Source of the DNA: Candidatus Desantisiibacteriota bacterium
GTDB taxonomy: Bacteria > JACRDZ01
Direction of reading: 5' to 3'
DNA: 17,290 nt
NCBI GenBank assembly: GCA_016209155.1
Contig: JACQWU010000112.1
Location: 2,188-19,477 of the forward strand
How positions within the stretch are numbered: the first letter of the stretch is position 1; each line of letters begins with the position of its first letter. The position numbers and the translations under genes are program-made. Under the pieces are notes generated by a model. The model worked only from the letters and a program-made list of their open reading frames with translations, did not search any database and had not been told where the DNA came from. Positions 5,097 through 17,290 of this stretch are shown here, in pieces.

Positions 5097-6680
5097 TTAC
5101 AATGTTATTGTTTTAACAGTATTTATCCCATCTATTTCTTTAATTTTATTTAATACTTCCAATGATAATTCAGTATCTATCATAAAAAGCGAAAGAGCCA
5201 GTCCGCCCTTTTCCTTCCTTCCATAACGCATTCCTGCAATATTTATATTATTATTTCCAAAGAGTGTTCCCAATTTTCCGATAAGCCCGGGCTTATCAAC
5301 ATTATAACACAAAAGCAGGTTTCCGCTTGGGACTATATCTACTACGTAATCTTCTATTTTTACAATACGCGGCAATTTTTTATCCAGCAGGGACCCCGAA
5401 ATGTATCTTTTCACCTTATCTGTCTCTATCATTACTGAAATCATATTGGTAAAATCGGTTACTTCTGTAGTTTTTTGTTCAATTATTTTTATCTCACGTT
5501 CTTTGGCAATAAACGGAGCATTTACAAAGTTTACAGTATCTTTTAAAATTGGCTGCAGGAATCCTTTAATAAAAGCAGTTGTAATAGGTTTAACATTATA
5601 ATGAGCAATTTCACCGCTATACATAATCTCGATGTTTTTGATATGTCCTTCACTAAGCTGACCTTCAAAAAGTCCCATTTTCTCAGCAAGATCCAGATAA
5701 GGTGAAAGTTCTTTAAGCAAAGATGGGTCCACACATGAAACATTAATAGCATTAACTATTTTGCATTCAAATAAAGCATCCAATACCTGTTTGATTATAT
5801 CTACCGCAACATTTTGCTGCGCTTCGATAGTTGAGGCACCAAGATGCGGAGTAACAATGCAATTATCCAGTTCAAGGAGCTTGCTTTCAAGAGGAGGCTC
5901 ATTTTCATAAACATCTAATGCCGCTCCGGCAATTTTTTTATTTTTTAAAGCTTCATAAAGAGCATCTTCTTTTATAATTCCGCCTCTGGCACAGTTAATT
6001 ATTCTGACAGACGGTTTCATTTTAGCCAGAGAATTCTCGTCTATGATATTTTTTGTTTGCGCGGTCAAAGGGGTATGCACTGTAATAAAATCAGAAGAGG
6101 TAAAAATCTCTTCAAGCTCTACCAGTTTAATTCCAATCCCTTCCGCTTTTTCAACAGAAATAAACGGATCATAGGCAATCACTTTAATTTCAAAAGCCCG
6201 TGCTCTTTTTGCAACTTCAAAACCAATTCTGCCAAGCCCTACTACTCCTAAAATTTTACCCTTTAACTCAACTCCTGTAAATAATTTTCTTTCCCATTTT
6301 TTTGACTTTAAGGAAATATCAGCCTGCGGTATATTCCGCGCAAGGCTCATAAGCATGGCAAATGAAAGCTCGGCAGTGGAAATCGTATTACCCTCAGGAG
6401 TATTCATTACGATTATTCCCTTTTTAGATGCGGCGTCTATATCAACATTATCAACACCTACTCCGGCCCTGCCTATTATTTTTAAATTAGCTGCCGCATT
6501 AATTATTTCCTTTGTTACTTTTGTTTCGCTTCTGACAAGTAAAACATGATATTTTGGAATTTCAACTAACAATTCTTCTTTTGTCATCTTCGTTTTAAAG
6601 GTAAGATCAATATCTTTTCTATCTTTGAGAAGTTTTAATCCCTCTTCAGAAAGCGGATCACTCACTAAAATTTTATACAT
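5097..6680 (-). CDS. serA: D-3-phosphoglycerate dehydrogenase (long form with ASB and ACT domains)
   Basis: Catalyses NAD-dependent oxidation of 3-phosphoglycerate to 3-phosphohydroxypyruvate, the first step of serine synthesis, in the cytoplasm. The NAD-binding Rossmann motif is GLGRIG at 148-153. The catalytic triad expected for this family is present: Arg232 in ARGG, Glu261 in the DVYENEPP segment, and His279 in PHLGAST. The C-terminal part holds the intervening (ASB) domain, about 320-445, and a terminal ACT domain (LLCYNVDKPGLIGKLGTLFG, then NNINIAGMRYGRKEKGG), which normally binds serine for feedback inhibition. The length of 527 residues matches long-form bacterial SerA. I chose the ATG at 6680 because AGGAGG (6690-6695) sits nine bases upstream; an in-frame ATG at 6701 lies upstream of that site and would add only MNRRIYF. 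It directly follows an aminotransferase gene expected to catalyse the next step. Confidence 0.96.
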   Translation of the reverse strand: MYKILVSDPLSEEGLKLLKDRKDIDLTFKTKMTKEELLVEIPKYHVLLVRSETKVTKEIINAAANLKIIGRAGVGVDNVDIDAASKKGIIVMNTPEGNTISTAELSFAMLMSLARNIPQADISLKSKKWERKLFTGVELKGKILGVVGLGRIGFEVAKRARAFEIKVIAYDPFISVEKAEGIGIKLVELEEIFTSSDFITVHTPLTAQTKNIIDENSLAKMKPSVRIINCARGGIIKEDALYEALKNKKIAGAALDVYENEPPLESKLLELDNCIVTPHLGASTIEAQQNVAVDIIKQVLDALFECKIVNAINVSCVDPSLLKELSPYLDLAEKMGLFEGQLSEGHIKNIEIMYSGEIAHYNVKPITTAFIKGFLQPILKDTVNFVNAPFIAKEREIKIIEQKTTEVTDFTNMISVMIETDKVKRYISGSLLDKKLPRIVKIEDYVVDIVPSGNLLLCYNVDKPGLIGKLGTLFGNNNINIAGMRYGRKEKGGLALSLFMIDTELSLEVLNKIKEIDGINTVKTITL

Positions 6681-6711
6681 AAAATAAATCCTCCTGTTCA
6701 TTTATTCAATA

Positions 6712-7851
6712 TTATTCCATTAAAACTTTTTGGGCTGCACCAACACCTTTTCCTAATTCCAATTTATATCCCATTTCCACCAATGCCATTTCTATAGCAG
6801 AAATTACAATTATTATATCAAATAAATCCATATAACCTAAATGCGCAATTCTTATGATTTTTCCCTTAACATGATCCTGCCCGCCAATTATTGTAACCCC
6901 ATATTTACTTTTTAATTTTTTTATCAAAACACCTGCATCCATACCGGAAGGCATTTTAAGAGGTGTTACCGCGTTACTGGGAGTTCCCGGAGCAAAAAGC
7001 TCAAGTCCCATAACTTTTGCCGCTTCACGTATTGCTTTTCCAAGCTTAGAGTGCCTTGTTATAACATTTTCAAGTCCTTCTTCCTGAATCATATTTAATG
7101 CTTTATTAAGTCCAATTACAAGGGAAATAGCCGGAGTAAACGGAGTCTGGCCCTCTTCAACTAAAGATTTTTTTGCCTTCTTCAGGCTATAATAAAATTT
7201 AGGTGATTTTGATTCTTCAGCCAATTTCCATGCCTTATCACTCAAAGCAATAAACGCAAGTCCGGGAGGAAGCATTAATGCTTTCTGTGAACCGGCAATA
7301 GCTGCATCTACATTCCAATCATCAGTGCGAAATTCCTCAGCTCCTAATCCGCTGATCGCATCAACTATTAAAATGGCTTCTGTTTCCTTAACTATTTTAC
7401 CTATAGTTTTTATATCTGTTGTTACTCCTGTTGATGTTTCACAAAGAGTAGTAAAAACAGCTTTTATTTGTTTGTTTTCCAAAAGATGTTTTCTAATATC
7501 CTCCGGATTTACAGCTTTGCCCCATTCAACATTTATCATTATAGTATTTATACTATAAGCTTCGCAAAGCTTTCCCCACCGTTCACCAAACTTTCCCGCA
7601 TTTACAACAAGTGCTGTATCTCCGGGAGAAAGCAGATTAACAACAGCTGCCTCCATTGCTCCTGTTCCTGATGATGTCAATACATAAACATTATTTTTAG
7701 TATAAAAAATTTTTTTAAGTCCGTCATTTACATTTTTAAAAACTTCCATGTATACAGGCGTTCGATGATGTATCATGGGTCTTGCCATTTCAAGTGAAAC
7801 ATCGGGTGGAACCGCTGTTGGTCCAGGTGTCAGCAGATAATTTTTTTTCAT
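6712..7851 (-). CDS. Class V aminotransferase, probable phosphoserine aminotransferase partner of SerA
   Basis: A 379-residue PLP enzyme of the serine-pyruvate / alanine-glyoxylate aminotransferase group. The N-terminal LLTPGPTAVP (6-15) and HHRTP (28-32) are typical of the group. SSGTGAMEA (60-68) binds the cofactor phosphate, Asp164 in LIVDAISGLG contacts the pyridine nitrogen, and Lys190 in AGSQKALMLPPG is the Schiff-base lysine. Family members are annotated variously as aspartate, serine-pyruvate or alanine-glyoxylate aminotransferases. In several anaerobes and thermophiles such a gene sits beside serA and is thought to supply phosphoserine aminotransferase activity in place of classic SerC. 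The same pairing here favours that role, converting 3-phosphohydroxypyruvate and glutamate to phosphoserine. A GGAG ribosome binding site (7858-7861) lies before the ATG. No serB-type phosphatase is in the window. Substrate specificity is inference. Confidence 0.9.
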   Translation of the reverse strand: MKKNYLLTPGPTAVPPDVSLEMARPMIHHRTPVYMEVFKNVNDGLKKIFYTKNNVYVLTSSGTGAMEAAVVNLLSPGDTALVVNAGKFGERWGKLCEAYSINTIMINVEWGKAVNPEDIRKHLLENKQIKAVFTTLCETSTGVTTDIKTIGKIVKETEAILIVDAISGLGAEEFRTDDWNVDAAIAGSQKALMLPPGLAFIALSDKAWKLAEESKSPKFYYSLKKAKKSLVEEGQTPFTPAISLVIGLNKALNMIQEEGLENVITRHSKLGKAIREAAKVMGLELFAPGTPSNAVTPLKMPSGMDAGVLIKKLKSKYGVTIIGGQDHVKGKIIRIAHLGYMDLFDIIIVISAIEMALVEMGYKLELGKGVGAAQKVLME

Positions 7852-9008: not shown

Positions 9009-9037
9009 TTGACAAAATAAATTTTCAGTTTAATAAT
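9009..9037 (+). promoter_or_regulatory. Sigma-70-type promoter of the kdp leader
   Basis: Perfect -35 TTGACA (9009-9014), a 17-base spacer and -10 AATAAT (9032-9037, five of six matches). Transcription would start near 9044, about 45 bases before the first riboswitch. It is divergent from the serine operon promoter, with about 30 bases between the two -35 boxes. No second promoter of this quality is seen between the two riboswitches, so both should be on the same transcript. Confidence 0.7.
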
Positions 9038-9087
9038 CATAAATACATGCTTAATTTAGTTTCAGATGGTAATTATTTAAAAGTCTG

Positions 9088-9205
9088 AAAAAAGCGGGGA
9101 ACCCAGGATGTTGGTTTTATAAACCTTGGGGCGAATATCTGAGAATATCAGATTAGGGTGATCCGACCCGAGCCCGACAGCTAACTTCGTAGGCACATAC
9201 TTGGA
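9088..9205 (+). promoter_or_regulatory. c-di-AMP riboswitch (ydaO/yuaA class), copy 1
   Basis: Conserved blocks of the ydaO/yuaA aptamer appear in order: GCGGGGAACCCAGG (9094-9107), TTGGGGCGAAT (9126-9136), TTAGGGTGATCC near 9153, and CCCGAGCCCGACAGCTAAC near 9167-9185 followed by GTAGGC. Internal pairings are visible: GGTTT/AAACC (9113-9117 with 9121-9125) in the variable loop and ATCTGA/TCAGAT (9137-9142 with 9148-9153). I could not pair a full canonical P1 stem by eye. This class is normally an OFF switch: c-di-AMP stabilises the aptamer and the downstream terminator forms, lowering K+ uptake gene expression. Control of kdp fits the c-di-AMP and potassium link known in this class. Confidence 0.93.
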
Positions 9206-9214
9206 ACTTAAAAG

Positions 9215-9240
9215 CCAGAGAAAGTGTCTCTGGTTTTTTT
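9215..9240 (+). terminator. Intrinsic terminator of riboswitch copy 1
   Basis: Perfect 7-base stem CCAGAGA / TCTCTGG (9215-9221, 9227-9233) with loop AAGTG and seven T residues (9234-9240). It sits 10-20 bases after the aptamer, as expected for an expression platform. It is identical to the terminator of copy 2. Confidence 0.9.
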
Positions 9241-9244
9241 ATTT

Positions 9245-9265
9245 GGAGGTGGATTATAAATGTAA
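9245..9265 (+). other. Shine-Dalgarno plus start-stop (ATG-TAA) after riboswitch 1
   Basis: GGAGGT (9245-9250) is followed nine bases later by ATG (9260-9262) and immediately by TAA (9263-9265). The position relative to terminator 1 mirrors that of the kdpF ribosome binding site and ATG after terminator 2. It may be the relic of a gene once controlled by copy 1, or a minimal start-stop element that holds a ribosome. No longer reading frame with a good start follows before copy 2. Confidence 0.5.
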
Positions 9266-9312
9266 AATATAAATGCTTAATATTTTTCTGATTTTTTATG
9301 AAAAAAATTTGG

Positions 9313-9430
9313 GAAAAAGCGGAGGACCCAGGAAAATGATCAATATGATCTTGGGGCGAATATCTGGAAATATCAGATTAGGGTGATCCGACCCGAGCCC
9401 GACAGCTAACTTCGTAGGCACATACTTGGA
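9313..9430 (+). promoter_or_regulatory. c-di-AMP riboswitch (ydaO/yuaA class), copy 2
   Basis: The same block order as copy 1: GCGGAGGACCCAGG (9319-9332), TTGGGGCGAAT (9351-9361) and then the identical 3' half with CCCGACAGCTAAC and GTAGGC. GGAGGA is closer to the class consensus than copy 1's GGGGAA. The variable hairpin GATCA/TGATC (9338-9342 with 9346-9350) has a different sequence from copy 1 but occupies exactly the same positions. It lies directly before kdpF and would make the final transcription decision for the operon. Confidence 0.93.
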
Positions 9431-9439
9431 ACTTAAAAG

Positions 9440-9465
9440 CCAGAGAAAGTGTCTCTGGTTTTTTT
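9440..9465 (+). terminator. Intrinsic terminator of riboswitch copy 2
   Basis: Same stem CCAGAGA / TCTCTGG (9440-9446, 9452-9458), loop AAGTG and seven T residues (9459-9465) as copy 1. It ends five bases before the kdpF ribosome binding site (AGGGAGG, 9471-9477), so premature termination here would silence the whole operon. Confidence 0.9.
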
Positions 9466-9486
9466 ATTTTAGGGAGGAAAAAATAC

Positions 9487-9576
9487 ATGTCAATCACATA
9501 TTTAGTTGCAGGAATAGTAGCATTTTTACTTTTAATTTATCTTTTAATCGCACTTTTAAAACCGGAGATATTCTAA
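9487..9576 (+). CDS. kdpF: KdpF, small membrane subunit of the Kdp K+-ATPase
   Basis: A 29-residue protein beginning MSITYLVAGIVAFLLL and ending KPEIF. It is a single hydrophobic helix with the Lys-Pro-Glu-x-Phe end that is characteristic of KdpF. In E. coli this subunit stabilises the KdpABC complex in the membrane. The ATG is preceded by AGGGAGG (9471-9477) at a nine-base spacing. The TAA overlaps the kdpA ATG by one base (TAATG), so the two are translationally coupled. It is the first gene after the tandem riboswitch and is easily missed because of its size. Confidence 0.93.
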   Translation: MSITYLVAGIVAFLLLIYLLIALLKPEIF

Positions 9577-11312
9577 TGAACATAAATAATGTTATTCAAT
9601 CATTATTATTTTTAGCTGTTTTAATTATATCAATTAAACCGCTTGGTATTTATATGGCGTATATATATGAAGGCAAACCTATAGGTATTAATGTGTGGCT
9701 TGTTCCTATTGAAAAATGGCTTTATCGTATTTCAGGGGTTGATTCTGAAACGGAGATGCCATGGAAAGAATATGCAATTGCGATGATGATTTTTAATATC
9801 ATAGGAATTTTCATCGTTTTTCTTTTGCAGCGTATTCAAGCATTTCTTCCTTTAAATCCGATGAATATGCCTAATGTACCTGAGGATTTATCATTTAATA
9901 CAGCAGTTAGTTTTGCTACAAACACCAACTGGCAAAGCTATGGAGGAGAAACCACTTTAAGTTATTTCACACAAATGATAGGATTAACCGTACAAAATTT
10001 TGTTTCTGCTGCAACAGGTATGGCATTAATCCTTCCTCTAATCAGGGGATTTATGCAAAAACAGAAAGAAACAATTGGAAATTTCTGGGTAGATTTGACG
10101 AGGTCTGTACTTTATGTTTTATTACCGCTTGCAATTGTTTTTGCGCTGGTTCTTATATCGTGTGGTGTTATTCAAACATTTAGACCTTCGATAAAAACTT
10201 CTTTACTACAGATAACAAAAAATGAAAAAGGCGACATAATATCTGAACAAACAATTGCTCTTGGCCCTGCTGCTTCACAAATTGCAATTAAACAATTAGG
10301 AACAAATGGAGGAGGATTTTTTAATGTCAATTCTGCTCATCCATTTGAAAATCCGGATGCGCTGACAAATTTTCTGGAACTTATAGCAATACTTTTGATA
10401 CCGGCTGCACTGTGTTATTCCTTTGGATATATGGTTGGAGATGTTCGTCAGGGAATGGCACTTCTTGCCGTAATGCTGATTATTTTCATTCCATGCCTAT
10501 TAGGATCTGTTTACTTTGAACAAAAAGGGAATCCTGTTTTTAAAAATTTCAATATTGATCAGCAGGCTACAAACCTTCAGCCGGGTGGAAATATGGAAGG
10601 GAAAGAAGCGCGTTTTGGTATAGTAAACTCATCTATTTGGGCAGTATCCACGACAGCCGCTTCTAATGGTTCGATAAATTCAATGCATGATTCACATACT
10701 CCAATGTCAGGGCTTATTCAAATGTGGTTGATGCAAATAGGGGAGGTAATTTTCGGAGGTGTTGGTTCAGGGCTTTACGGGATGATTTCATTCGCAATCG
10801 TAGCTGTGTTTATATCGGGACTTATGATAGGACGAACTCCTGAATATTTAGGCAAAAAAATTGAATCTTATGAAATGAAAATGGCATCAATAATGATATT
10901 AATTCCACCCATATTAGTTCTTGGTGGAACTGCAATTGCGGTCGTTTTACCAGAAGCAAAAGCTGCTATCTTAAACCATGGGCCACATGGCTTTAGCGAA
11001 GTATTGTATGCTTTTTCATCAGCCGGTAATAATAACGGAAGCGCATTTGCAGGACTCGGAGTAAATACCTTTTTTTATAATATTTCACTTGGGATAGCAA
11101 TGTTTTGTGCGCGTTACTTTTTGGCTATCCCAATACTTGCAATTGCCGGATCATTATCAAAGAAAAAAATTATTCCGGTAAGCCAGGGCACTTTGCCAAC
11201 TTATACACCGCTTTTTGTAACATTTTTAACTATGATTGTTATAATTGTTGGTGCATTAACTTTTTTCCCGGCATTAGCCCTGGGCCCGATTGTTGAACAT
11301 TTAATGATGTAA
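9576..11312 (+). CDS. kdpA: KdpA, potassium-translocating subunit of the Kdp K+-ATPase
   Basis: 578 residues with about ten membrane helices. KdpA is the channel-like subunit of the superfamily of K+ transporters and forms the selectivity filter for high-affinity K+ uptake. The four pore-loop segments are visible: TNTNWQSYGGE (115-125), TNGGGFFN (243-250), TTAASNGS (359-366) and SAGNNNGSAF (482-491). I chose the ATG at 9576, giving MNINNVIQSLLFLAVLII, because it overlaps the kdpF stop and matches the family N-terminus. The frame is open further upstream, but an ATG at 9426 would run through the riboswitch terminator and kdpF. A REP-like palindrome follows in the 61-base gap to kdpB. Confidence 0.97.
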   Translation: MNINNVIQSLLFLAVLIISIKPLGIYMAYIYEGKPIGINVWLVPIEKWLYRISGVDSETEMPWKEYAIAMMIFNIIGIFIVFLLQRIQAFLPLNPMNMPNVPEDLSFNTAVSFATNTNWQSYGGETTLSYFTQMIGLTVQNFVSAATGMALILPLIRGFMQKQKETIGNFWVDLTRSVLYVLLPLAIVFALVLISCGVIQTFRPSIKTSLLQITKNEKGDIISEQTIALGPAASQIAIKQLGTNGGGFFNVNSAHPFENPDALTNFLELIAILLIPAALCYSFGYMVGDVRQGMALLAVMLIIFIPCLLGSVYFEQKGNPVFKNFNIDQQATNLQPGGNMEGKEARFGIVNSSIWAVSTTAASNGSINSMHDSHTPMSGLIQMWLMQIGEVIFGGVGSGLYGMISFAIVAVFISGLMIGRTPEYLGKKIESYEMKMASIMILIPPILVLGGTAIAVVLPEAKAAILNHGPHGFSEVLYAFSSAGNNNGSAFAGLGVNTFFYNISLGIAMFCARYFLAIPILAIAGSLSKKKIIPVSQGTLPTYTPLFVTFLTMIVIIVGALTFFPALALGPIVEHLMM

Positions 11313-11373: not shown

Positions 11374-13449
11374 ATGAGTAAATCGTACAAACAAAAATCG
11401 TTATTTGAATGGGCTATCATTGGCCCTGCTATTATTAATTCTATAAAAAAATTAGATCCGGGACATCAAATTAAAAATCCTGTAATGTTCGTTGTTTTGA
11501 TTGGCAGTATATTTACAACAGGCCTTTTTATACAAGCACTTGTAGGTCAGGGAGAAGCTCCGGCAAATTTCATTCTGGCAATTTCATTATGGTTATGGTT
11601 TACCGTAATTTTTGCCAATTTTGCGGAAGCAATGGCTGAAGGACGAGGGAAAGCGCAGGCTGATTCCTTAAGAAAAGTACGCAAGGATACACCGGCTAAA
11701 AAACTTGCACAAAATAAATATGGCACAAATCATACAATTGTATCGGCATCAACGCTCAGCAAGGGAGACGTTGTTCTTATCGAAGCAGGAGATGCCATTC
11801 CCATGGATGGAGAAGTTATTGAAGGAGTAGCATCGGTGGATGAAAGCGCAATTACCGGAGAAAGTGCGCCGGTAATACGTGAAAGTGGCGGTGATAGAAG
11901 CGCAGTTACAGGTGGAACACGCGTTCTTTCAGACTGGCTTGTAGTACGTATAAGTACAAATCCGGGGGAAACATTTCTTGATCGCATGATTGCCATGGTA
12001 GAAGGTGCTAAAAGACAAAAAACTCCAAATGAAATAGCACTCTGCATTCTACTTGCAGTTTTCACTTTGATATTTCTATTAGCCTGTGTAACTCTTTTAC
12101 CGTTTTCCATATATAGTGTACTTACAGCCGGGCATGGAGTACCAATAACGATTACCGCACTCGTGGCTTTACTTGTGTGTCTTATCCCAACTACAATAGG
12201 AGGTTTATTACCGGCAATAGGTATAGCTGGAATGGACAAAATGATTCAGGCAAATGTTATTGCTACATCCGGACGTGCAGTAGAAGCTGCCGGGGATGTT
12301 GATGTATTGCTTCTTGATAAAACAGGTACCATAACACTCGGGAACAGACAGGCTGTGGCATTTTTACCCGCTAAAGGCATAACGGCTGAGCTAATAGCTG
12401 ATGCAGCTCAAATATCCTCTCTTTCCGATGAAACTCCTGAAGGAAGAAGCATTGTTATTCTCGCTAAAGAAAAATATAATATTCGCGCCAGACAAATACA
12501 TGAATTAAATGCAAAATTTATTCCTTTTACGGCACAAACACGAATGAGTGGTGTAAATTTGGGTGATGGACGCCAAATTAGAAAGGGCGCTATTGATGCA
12601 ATTGAAAATTATGTAAAAAGTCTTGGAGGATTTTTTCCTGAGGAATTAAAAACAAATATTGAATCAATATCAAAAACAGGTGGAACACCGCTTGTTGTGG
12701 CTGAGCATAAGAATGTTCTTGGTCTTATACATTTAAAAGATATAATAAAAGGTGGGATTAAAGAGCGGTTTGAAGAACTTCGCAGAATGGGAATAAAAAC
12801 AGTAATGATAACCGGAGATAATCCTTTAACAGCTGCAGCAATAGCCGCAGAAGCAGGAATGGATGATTTTTTAGCGCAGGCAACACCTGAAACCAAACTT
12901 AAATATATTCGGGATATGCAGGCAGGTGGGAGGCTTGTAGCCATGACCGGAGACGGTACAAACGATGCTCCGGCGCTTGCTCAGGCAGATGTTGCAGTTG
13001 CAATGAACACCGGCACACAAGCTGCAAAAGAAGCCGTGAATATGGTAGATCTTGATTACAATCCAACAAAACTTATTCAAATTGTTGAAATAGGAAAACA
13101 ACTTTTAATGACAAGAGGATCTCTGACTACATTCAGTATTGCCAATGACATTTCCAAATATTTTGCAATTATACCAGCTGCGTTTGCCACAACATATCCT
13201 GTGCTAAATAGCTTAAATATTATGCACCTTGCAACTCCGTCAAGCGCGATTTTATCAGCGGTTATTTTTAATGCAATTATTATAATATTTCTTATCCCAC
13301 TTGCTTTAAAAGGTATTGCATATAAACCAATGCCGGCAAACCGATTACTACGAAATAATCTTTTAATTTATGGTGTCGGAGGTCTTATAACACCATTTAT
13401 CGGTATTAAATTGATTGATATGCTTTTGGTTGCATTGCATTTGGTGTAA
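11374..13449 (+). CDS. kdpB: KdpB, catalytic P-type ATPase subunit of the Kdp K+-ATPase
   Basis: A 691-residue class IA P-type ATPase, close to the usual length of about 680. It hydrolyses ATP to drive K+ import through KdpA. Visible motifs are the actuator TGES (161-164), the phosphorylation site Asp315 in DKTGTITLG, nucleotide-binding FTAQTRMSG (385-393) and RKGA (403-406), TGDNP (480-484) and GDGTNDAPA (526-534). The segment [19 protein letters not shown] is diagnostic of KdpB. Ser164 in TGES corresponds to the serine (Ser162) whose phosphorylation inhibits E. coli KdpB, so that control could operate here. AGGAG (11361-11365) precedes the ATG. Confidence 0.98.
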
Positions 13450-13501: not shown

Positions 13502-14080
13502 ATGTTTAAAAATCAAATAAAACCGGCAATCTTCATGTTCTTAATTTTAACAATAGTCACAGGTATTATTTATCCGCTTGTTATAACTGGAATAGCTCAA
13601 CTGGTTTTTTCTGAAAAAGCAAATGGAAGTATAATATACAAAGATGGAAAGCCAATTGGATCCAAATTTATAGGACAGTCATTTGATGATCCTAAATATT
13701 TTTGGGGACGGCTTTCTGCAACAACACCTGCATACAATGCGGCAAGTTCATCAGGATCTAATTTAGGACCATTAAATCCGCAGTTGATTAATAATGTCAA
13801 AGCGCGCGTTAAAGCTTTAACAATATCTGATCCTGATAACAAAAATCCAATTCCTGTTGATCTTGTTACAAGTTCAGCAAGCGGACTGGATCCTCATATT
13901 AGTGTTGCAGGAGCTATGTATCAAATAGGCCGTGTAGTGCGTTTGCAGGGAATACGAGAAGAAACATTAAAATCAATCGTAAAAAAGCACACATGCGGAC
14001 GGTTTTTAGGTTTAATTGGTGAGCCGGTTGTAAATGTGCTTGAACTTAATTTAGAATTAAATGAAAATAGGATGAAATGA
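13502..14080 (+). CDS. kdpC: KdpC, accessory subunit of the Kdp K+-ATPase
   Basis: 192 residues with one N-terminal membrane helix (about 9-34, IFMFLILTIVTGIIYPLVIT). The external domain carries the family segments GSKFIGQSFDDPKYFWGRLS and TPAYNAASSSGSNLGPLNPQL. KdpC stabilises the complex and raises its nucleotide affinity. A second hallmark is SASGLDPHISVAGAMYQIGRV (about 125-145). The ATG has AGGAG (13492-13496) five bases upstream. The C-terminal region (HTCGRFLGLIGEPVVNVLEL) is typical of full-length KdpC. The gap to the kdpD-like gene is 12 bases, so the two are co-transcribed. Confidence 0.96.
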   Translation: MFKNQIKPAIFMFLILTIVTGIIYPLVITGIAQLVFSEKANGSIIYKDGKPIGSKFIGQSFDDPKYFWGRLSATTPAYNAASSSGSNLGPLNPQLINNVKARVKALTISDPDNKNPIPVDLVTSSASGLDPHISVAGAMYQIGRVVRLQGIREETLKSIVKKHTCGRFLGLIGEPVVNVLELNLELNENRMK

Positions 14081-14092
14081 GGTATAATAATT

Positions 14093-16285
14093 ATGGACAG
14101 ACCAAATCCCGATAATATTTTAAAAATGGTTAAAGATGAAGATTCTCATCGAGGTAAAATTAAAATTTTTTTTGGAGCTGTTGCAGGTGTTGGTAAAACA
14201 TATGCAATGCTTGAATCTGCACGACTTAGAAAAAAGGAAGGTATTGATATTGTTGTCGGACATATAGAAACTCATAAGCGTGTTGATACGGAATCACTTC
14301 TGGAAGGTCTTGAAATTTTACCTTCTATGATTATTAAATACAAAAATGTTACCCTGCATGAATTTGATATTGATGCCGCGATAAAAAGAAATCCGAAAAT
14401 AATATTAGTTGACGAATTGGCTCATACCAATGCACCCGGTCTACGTCATACAAAACGCTGGCAGGACATTGAAGAATTGCTTGAAAAAGGGATTAATGTT
14501 TATACCACATTAAATGTCCAGCATTGTGAAAGTGTGAATGATATAGTATCTCAGATTACAGGGATAACTGTCCGCGAAACAGTTCCCGATACTTTTATCG
14601 AGAGATCAAACGATATTGAGCTTGTTGATCTTCCATCAGAGGAATTATTAAAGCGTCTTAAAGAAGGGAAAATTTATCTTGGTGAACAAAAAGAGCATGC
14701 AGCGGAAAATTTTTTCCAGCCGGGGAATCTGATTGCACTGCGTCAACTTGCTTTGCGCTATACTGCACATAATGTTGATTCCAAATTACAGGCATATAAA
14801 GAAGCTCATTCGATAAAAAAAATATGGAATGTCAGTGATAAATTTTTAGTATGCATAAGTTCAAGCCCTACAGCAATTCGCCTGATAAGAGCAGGGAAAA
14901 GAATAGCATCGAATTTAAAGGTGGATTGGATTGTTGCGTATGTTGAAATTCCAGCATTTTTAAAAGAAGAAGACAAAAAAAGAATCTCTGATATGATGAG
15001 ACTCGCTGAAACACTTGGTGCTGAAACAGCAACGCTCAGTGGACAGGATGTAGCAGAAACCTTAATTTCATATGCACGTTCAAAGAATATTACCAAAATA
15101 ATCATTGGTAAACCGCTAAGACCACGATGGAAAGAATTTTTCTTTGGATCAGTTATTGACAATTTTGCACGTAAAAGCGATGAGATAGATTTATATTTAT
15201 TAAGCGGTGATAGACAGCATGACGAAATAATTAAATCCACTTCCATGAAAATTTCTCCATTTTCATGGAAGAATTTTGGATTTACTATTGGAATAATATT
15301 TTTATGTACTATAATCAATAAACTTCTTCTTTCATCCCTGGCACTTGTAAATTTAATATTGATTTATTTTTCAGGAGTAACATGTGTTGCATTCCGATAT
15401 GGCAGGCGAATGTCGATTATAGCATCATTTTTAAGCGTATTGTTTTTTGATTTCTTTTTTGTTCCGCCATATTTTTCCTTTGCTGTAACAGATGTTGAAT
15501 ACTTTATAACTTTTATTGTAATGTTGATAGTGGGATTTACTATAGCTCATTTAACAGGACAACTTAAACGGCAAACAATTGCCATGAGACTTCGTGAAGA
15601 CCGTACGCAAGCTTTGTATTCCATAAGCCGCGATTTATCCAAAAGTTCTTATCCGGATGAGCTTTTTAAAATTGCTCTTAATCATATACAAAATTTTTTT
15701 AAATGCCGAGCTGTTATATATATACCTGATATCAATAACAATCTTACTGCAAATTTTGGTGAAATCAAGGAATTGAATTTATCGGCAAATGATTATACTG
15801 TTGTGGAATGGGTCTATGAACACAAAAAAAACGCAGGGAAAAATACAGATACTTTACCCGGATGGTCAAAAGGAATGTATTTACCTTTTACAGGAGTAGA
15901 AAAGACAGTAGGAGTTTTAGGGATTTTCCCTGAAGATGATAAGTTTAAAGATCCGGATCAACTGCATATGCTTGAGATGTTTGTAAACCAGACAGCGCTC
16001 GCAGTTGAAGGAGCAGAGCTTGCCAGGGCTGCAATTGATGCAAAATCAAATATTGAAAATGAACGCTTTAAAAATTTACTTTTAACTACTTTCTCATATG
16101 AACTTCAAGATCCATTGACATCCATTTCAGATGTTGCCGCAGAATTATCGAAACCTGAAAATATTAATGATGAATCAAAACGTAATATGTTAATAAAAAA
16201 AATGCAATATGAGATAAATATCCTAAATAAAAATGTTAATGAATTGCCAAATATAATTGATACCCGTAACAAACCTAATTTATAA
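14093..16285 (+). CDS. kdpD: KdpD-like sensor lacking kinase function (truncated, H-box Tyr)
   Basis: 730 residues, against roughly 890 for E. coli KdpD. The N-terminal KdpD domain has a Walker A motif GAVAGVGKT (28-36) and ILVDELAHTNAPG (104-116). A universal-stress-protein domain spans about 248-372 and includes GKPLRPRWKEFFFGSVID. Four membrane helices fall at about 395-413, 416-434, 440-457 and 469-487. A GAF-like region follows (about 510-645), then a HisKA-like hairpin (655-715). In the H-box, FSYELQDPL, the phosphoacceptor His is Tyr669 (TAT at 16097-16099). The protein ends 61 residues later, so the whole ATP-binding domain is absent. The 26 bases between its stop and the next gene leave no room for a remnant. 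No kdpE follows. It probably acts as a ligand-binding regulator and not as a kinase. GAGGT (14079-14083) is the ribosome binding site. Confidence 0.93.
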   Translation: MDRPNPDNILKMVKDEDSHRGKIKIFFGAVAGVGKTYAMLESARLRKKEGIDIVVGHIETHKRVDTESLLEGLEILPSMIIKYKNVTLHEFDIDAAIKRNPKIILVDELAHTNAPGLRHTKRWQDIEELLEKGINVYTTLNVQHCESVNDIVSQITGITVRETVPDTFIERSNDIELVDLPSEELLKRLKEGKIYLGEQKEHAAENFFQPGNLIALRQLALRYTAHNVDSKLQAYKEAHSIKKIWNVSDKFLVCISSSPTAIRLIRAGKRIASNLKVDWIVAYVEIPAFLKEEDKKRISDMMRLAETLGAETATLSGQDVAETLISYARSKNITKIIIGKPLRPRWKEFFFGSVIDNFARKSDEIDLYLLSGDRQHDEIIKSTSMKISPFSWKNFGFTIGIIFLCTIINKLLLSSLALVNLILIYFSGVTCVAFRYGRRMSIIASFLSVLFFDFFFVPPYFSFAVTDVEYFITFIVMLIVGFTIAHLTGQLKRQTIAMRLREDRTQALYSISRDLSKSSYPDELFKIALNHIQNFFKCRAVIYIPDINNNLTANFGEIKELNLSANDYTVVEWVYEHKKNAGKNTDTLPGWSKGMYLPFTGVEKTVGVLGIFPEDDKFKDPDQLHMLEMFVNQTALAVEGAELARAAIDAKSNIENERFKNLLLTTFSYELQDPLTSISDVAAELSKPENINDESKRNMLIKKMQYEINILNKNVNELPNIIDTRNKPNL

Positions 16286-16311: not shown

Positions 16312-17290
16312 TCATTCTTTATCAAGATGAGGAAGTTCGGAAAAACCTGCGGCTTTTCTCTTATATGGATTTTTATAATTTTTCATTAATAGTGAATTAG
16401 ATACTACTGAGACAGAACTAAACGCCATTGCCATACCTGCAATAATCGGATTTAGTAAAAAACCTGTAAACGGATAAATAATACCCGATGCTATGGGAAT
16501 CCCGAGTGAATTATAAAAAAATGCCCAGAAAAGATTCTGTTTTATTTTTTTCATTGTATAAGTAGAAAGGTCTATAGCAGTTACAACATCGCGCAGATCA
16601 GCCTTAATAAGGACAATCTCACCTGACTCAATTGCAATATCAGTACCTGTCCCGACAGCGATTCCGACATCTGCCTGAATTAATGCCGGAGCATCATTAA
16701 TCCCATCGCCAACCATTGCAACCTTGTTTCCCTCGTTTTGAATTTTTTTAATTGTTTCCGCTTTATCCTGCGGTAATACTTCGGCAAATACTCTGTCTAT
16801 ACCGAGCTCTTTTGCGATCGCATTTCCTGTACGAATATTATCCCCTGTGATCATTACAACATTTTTTCCCATTTTTTTTAGAATGGTTACTGCCTCTTTT
16901 GAATGTTCTTTTAATGTATCCGCTACAGCTACTATTCCTGACACTTTTCTATCTATAACCACATACATGGAGGTTTTTCCCTGCAACTCAAGTTTTTGTA
17001 TTATATCATCAAAAGGACTCACATCAATTCCCAGTTCATTGAACAATTTCCTGTTGCCGATATAAATATTTTTTCCCTGCCATACAGCATTAACACCTTT
17101 ACCTGTAATAGAATCGAAAGTTTCAGGGTCATTTATTTTGATATTTTTTTTCTTCGCACCTTTAATTATCGCATCACCAACGGGATGTTCTGATTTTTTT
17201 TCTGCAAGTGCGGCAAAAAAAAGGACATCCTCTTCCTTAAAATCTTTTGATGCAAACACATCCGTCATTTCAGGTTCACCTTTTGTCAGC
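16312..17290 (-). CDS. copA: CopA-type Cu+-exporting P-type ATPase, C-terminal part
   Basis: 325 C-terminal residues are visible; the 5' part lies beyond the right edge. The first visible codons read LTKGEPEMTDV, the continuation of the DKTGT phosphorylation motif, which itself is just outside. The Met encoded at 17266-17268 is therefore internal. Numbered from that Met, the class IB nucleotide-binding SEHPVGDAI is at 26-34, TGDN at 141-144 and GDGINDAPA at 187-195. The penultimate membrane helix has YNSLGIP (252-258) and the last has MAFSSVSVVSN (281-291). These fit the YN-x4-P and M-x2-SS signatures of Cu+ transporters (subgroup IB-1) and exclude zinc/cadmium exporters. The gene is convergent with kdpD, 26 bases apart, with no obvious terminator between them. 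Confidence 0.93.
   Translation of the reverse strand, partial: LTKGEPEMTDVFASKDFKEEDVLFFAALAEKKSEHPVGDAIIKGAKKKNIKINDPETFDSITGKGVNAVWQGKNIYIGNRKLFNELGIDVSPFDDIIQKLELQGKTSMYVVIDRKVSGIVAVADTLKEHSKEAVTILKKMGKNVVMITGDNIRTGNAIAKELGIDRVFAEVLPQDKAETIKKIQNEGNKVAMVGDGINDAPALIQADVGIAVGTGTDIAIESGEIVLIKADLRDVVTAIDLSTYTMKKIKQNLFWAFFYNSLGIPIASGIIYPFTGFLLNPIIAGMAMAFSSVSVVSNSLLMKNYKNPYKRKAAGFSELPHLDKE

Follow-up and report, generated by a model that had tools for sequence, protein, structure and literature searches.

In Bacillus thuringiensis BMB171, a single c-di-AMP OFF riboswitch upstream of kdpFABC has been demonstrated experimentally, and the operon is not under kdpDE control (PMC6488665). Doubled c-di-AMP riboswitches also have been described: the portion of an RNA Biol. 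2022 survey on which we draw (PMC9481103) reports 77 doublets, in most of which a terminator separates the aptamers, and sets out their pseudo-cooperative logic, and no kdp case is named among the doublets in that portion. The stretch of Candidatus Desantisiibacteriota DNA analyzed here (17,290 nucleotides, referred to below as the window) resembles the B. thuringiensis locus in having a predicted RF00379 OFF switch with a terminator before kdpFABC but carries two copies where BMB171 has one. As in the doublets of that portion of the survey, two c-di-AMP aptamers separated by an intrinsic terminator precede a single operon. We consider it likely that the leader of kdpFABC(D) comprises two RF00379 transcription-terminating OFF riboswitches acting in series, which arose by tandem duplication and later gene conversion of their 3' halves.

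An Rfam cmscan matched RF00379 exactly twice in the window, both times at full length (model positions 1 to 134; E about 1e-14). Copy 1 spans 9038-9210 (68.5 bits) and copy 2 spans 9264-9435 (70.7 bits), both on the plus strand and well clear of the gathering score of 38 bits, which rules out a single true aptamer. No further match was found elsewhere in the whole assembly. The scores of both copies (68 to 71 bits) are below those of most members from Bacilli. Aptamers of this class bind two molecules of c-di-AMP. Inspection of the two copies revealed that the conserved core is kept in both, namely, P1, the CGGGGGA block pairing with CYUCG, GGGG-GAA, and CAGCUAAC, the sole deviation being a conserved G that is replaced by A in copy 1. 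P1 is formed by 9048-9051 with 9192-9195 in copy 1 and by 9274-9277 with 9417-9420 in copy 2. The pseudoknot between loop and tail (UCCG-UGGA, by inspection) is short; in copy 1, the loop UCCGA (9162-9166) can pair with the 3' tail UUGGA (9201-9205). A first-pass annotation of this DNA had proposed two complete c-di-AMP riboswitches with their own terminators before kdpFABC and had anticipated two significant hits to the ydaO/yuaA covariance model; both expectations were borne out by the RF00379 matches, the two terminators, and the kdpFABC domains. The start that it had placed at 9088 is too late, as each aptamer begins about 50 bases further 5', and the constant 225-base offset that it had described between the copies is exact from 9079 onwards but becomes 226 at the 5' strand of P1.

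Each aptamer is followed on the plus strand by an intrinsic terminator of 12 pairs and a T-run, at 9210-9238 (T-run to 9243) and 9435-9463 (T-run to 9468). The two terminators are identical in sequence and lie within a 101-nt perfect repeat (9144-9244 and 9369-9469) that covers the 3' half of the aptamer and the terminator, in agreement with the first-pass description of perfect terminators sharing the same T-run. Four terminator-like sites were found versus 0.5 expected in shuffled sequences, and the fold z-scores were -3.35 for terminator 1 and -3.0 for terminator 2. Nascent-length folding, started at the 3' strand of P1 with the RNA lengthened stepwise, predicted an anti-terminator at 9191-9229 that excludes both P1 and terminator 1. 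In this structure, AGGCAC (9191-9196) pairs with GUGUCU (9224-9229) and CUUGG (9200-9204) pairs with CCAGAG. It is the best predicted structure at about 44 to 46 nt, before the 3' arm of the terminator exists (-7.5 to -7.8 kcal/mol), and it loses to the final terminator state (-15.8 kcal/mol) once that arm is complete. An anti-terminator of the same sequence is predicted in copy 2 (plus strand, 9416-9454). Among the predicted structures, then, each copy has the downstream terminator and the competing anti-terminator on the aptamer 3' strand that are characteristic of an OFF switch. Since predicted anti-terminator 1 takes up the 3' strand of P1 (9192-9195) and extends into the 3' tail (9201-9205), an aptamer held by its ligand should favor termination. 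As each copy has such a mutually exclusive anti-terminator, the two are expected to work as OFF switches in series.

Downstream of the riboswitches, all on the plus strand, are kdpF (9487-9576; 29 amino acids, PF09604), which is preceded by a ribosome-binding site, GGGAGG, at about 9472-9477; kdpA (9576-11312; PF03814, E=1.5e-240); kdpB (11374-13449; E1-E2 ATPase); kdpC (13502-14080; PF02669); and a kdpD-like gene (14093-16285). The product of the last contains KdpD, Usp, DUF4118, and GAF domains, and a domain search returned no HisKA or HATPase match in it. A tyrosine is found where the phospho-accepting histidine would be expected (FSYELQDP), and no kdpE follows the kdpD-like gene. It may be that the riboswitches have taken over from the two-component system. 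Convergent with the operon, the minus strand at 16312-17268 encodes the C-terminal portion, with the HAD hydrolase domain, of a P-type ATPase.

The proposed mechanism is as follows. At high c-di-AMP (K+ replete), each aptamer would hold its P1 stem and the pseudoknot between loop and 3' tail, so that the P1 3' strand would be unavailable to the anti-terminator and the terminator would form. Polymerase would have to escape both terminators before reaching kdpF, and the read-through probabilities would multiply, giving pseudo-cooperative control. At low c-di-AMP (K+ starvation), the AGGCAC...CUUGG strand would pair with CCAGAGAAAGUGUCU, blocking both terminators. In a series model in which read-through multiplies and the parameters are illustrative, a 9-fold single switch became an about 80-fold double switch and the midpoint moved to lower ligand. 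The ligand range between 10 and 90% response narrowed from 80-fold to about 49-fold with a Hill coefficient of 1 and from 9-fold to 7-fold with a Hill coefficient of 2. Set against the large gain in fold change, this narrowing is modest, which suggests that tighter repression would be the main benefit. Of the "steeper, more tightly off" response foreseen in the first-pass annotation, the model thus favors the second part, with only a modest gain in steepness.

The source of the ligand also was considered. Searches of the genome assembly that contains the window, which is 79% complete, returned neither a diadenylate cyclase (PF02457) nor YbbR. A diadenylate cyclase is present in all three relatives from the same phylum, and in two of these (G001 and G003) the cyclase and YbbR genes are neighbors, so that a single gap in the assembly could account for the lack of both. 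DHH proteins also occur but are not specific.

The history of the doublet was assessed from the two copies and from a relative. The relative, G003 of the same phylum, has an orthologous kdp operon (KdpA 76% and KdpB 85% identical) with one RF00379 match and a related terminator stem. Because this orthologous operon has a single copy, the leader probably was duplicated locally, in tandem, within this lineage to give the doublet. At locus L084, from a single-copy relative, the interval from the riboswitch terminator to kdpF contains a small hydrophobic ORF of about 25 amino acids and a GC-rich hairpin (6559-6760 of that locus, minus strand). In the window, repeat D1 comprises 129 nt at 95% identity, and all divergence between the copies sits in the 5' half: the 5' parts match at 46 of 66 positions, a difference of about 30%, and the 3' parts agree at 99 of 99 positions (p about 1e-9). 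Had one recent duplication been the whole history, the two halves should be equally similar, so an older duplication followed by gene conversion that homogenized the 3' halves is the more likely course. Where the first-pass annotation had offered recent duplication or gene conversion, these comparisons support gene conversion, and recent duplication alone does not fit them. The boundary between the units is consistent with this origin. A GGAGG and an ATG at 9245-9262 on the plus strand, located by aligning the two units, fall in the spacer, where the ATG directly precedes a TAA (9263-9265) and forms a start-stop mini-ORF aligned with the start of kdpF. This is what would be expected if the duplicated leader ended at the kdpF start codon, and the GGAGG...ATG is likely what remains of a duplicated kdpF ribosome-binding site and start. 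Two complete units of aptamer and expression platform precede one ORF, with only ATG-TAA between them. No duplicate copies were found elsewhere in the genome. An assembly artifact was judged unlikely from the repeat layout, as the unique middle segment (9245-9368) has the repeat on both flanks; a third copy collapsed in the assembly is possible.

Whether both copies act on kdp depends in part on where transcription begins. The best plus-strand promoter is a sigma-70-like site, TTGACA-17-AATAAT, at 9009-9037 (11 of 12 consensus matches), from which the RNA is predicted to begin near 9044, on the 5' edge, or foot, of aptamer 1. One transcript covering both units would be expected from this predicted strong promoter upstream of copy 1, which, together with the exclusive anti-terminators, supports the series arrangement put forward in the first-pass annotation. 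Were there instead one promoter for each riboswitch, a promoter in the spacer would bypass copy 1. A TATAAA at 9255-9260 is in register with the upstream -10 element, but it is weak, the corresponding -35 region is the terminator T-run, and the promoter scan found no good site between the copies (none on the plus strand of the spacer reached 9 of 12 matches), so we regard a two-promoter arrangement as very unlikely. A further promoter-like site, on the minus strand at window positions 9466-9493 (TTGACA-16-TAAAAT, 11 of 12), is aimed in the antisense direction through both riboswitches.

The divergent 5' halves allow two further readings. Among 91 distinct aptamer cores taken from the fetched loci, the final G of CGGGGGA is kept in 90, and copy 1 is the one exception, with A (window positions 9092-9104). 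Copy 1 also has three G-U pairs within a 6-pair stem. The copy 2 core reads CGGAGGA, with A at another position; this A occurs in 5 other natural aptamers as well and is matched by U in the partner strand. Given the A at an otherwise invariant G, copy 1 may bind c-di-AMP less well. Taken further, the substitution and the G-U pairs would fit a duplicate in decay, with weak or constitutive termination, that leaves copy 2 as the only working switch, and gene conversion alone could have kept the 3' half of such a duplicate intact. We think this unlikely: copy 1 scores close to copy 2, its terminator and predicted anti-terminator are intact, and the positions that a review table (PMC7288161) gives as ligand contacts appear, when mapped through a reference sequence, to be kept about equally in both copies. 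By the same mapping to that table, which may contain labeling errors, the changed G presumably lies beside, and not on, the ligand contacts. Alternatively, unequal affinities of the 5' halves could set different thresholds, so that the response would be graded in two steps rather than steeper. All of the divergence is in the 5' half and includes one core substitution per copy, but nothing forces the affinities to be unequal, and this reading, too, appears improbable. We think it quite unlikely that the locus is a two-threshold device, in which gene conversion would keep the output half (P1 3' strand, anti-terminator, and terminator) identical while the 5' halves diverged and tuned the aptamers to different c-di-AMP levels. 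Two OFF switches in series is the reading that we prefer.

The first-pass annotation had suggested that tandem c-di-AMP control of kdp might be new and had called for a survey of other kdp leaders. Double matches were indeed found, and the suggested novelty did not hold, given the 77 doublets in the portion of PMC9481103 cited above and the recurrence of tandem copies before kdp in Bacillales. A strict pattern scan of genome contigs recovered 25 tandem stretches, all from Bacillales, and in 16 of these, kdpA lies downstream in the same orientation, no more than 1.5 kb away. Owing to the strictness of the pattern and the spacing limits, both numbers are minimum estimates; a family search added one further tandem-kdp locus (L086). 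The closest in layout are those of Niallia taxi (L032), Paenibacillus naphthalenovorans (L038), and P. turpanensis (L041), which have two RF00379 matches, kdpA as the next gene, and a strong terminator between the copies; at least these three among the kdp cases have such a terminator. Their copies are more divergent in the 3' part than those of the window (63 of 72 versus 70 of 72 positions in a same-size comparison). Loci from Bacillus and Fictibacillus (e.g., L030, L039, and L045) also have two aptamer motifs before kdpA, and a simple scan detected no strong terminator between their copies; it is possible that they represent two aptamers with one expression platform.

The arrangement in the window is real and ordinary in kind. 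Compared with the doublets in the cited portion of PMC9481103, what is new is a host lineage outside the Bacilli phylum and 3' halves that are identical and appear to have been homogenized. The A of copy 1, in place of a G that 90 of the 91 cores keep, is a further new feature. With this locus, tandem control of the K+ pump Kdp by c-di-AMP, as predicted here, reaches a little-sampled phylum in which a single-copy orthologous operon provides a natural comparison. More broadly, kdp lies downstream at 16 of the 25 loci from the exact-pattern scan, which suggests that tandem c-di-AMP riboswitches commonly target this operon, and the kdp set makes the question of why an aptamer that already binds two ligands should be doubled testable on defined genes.
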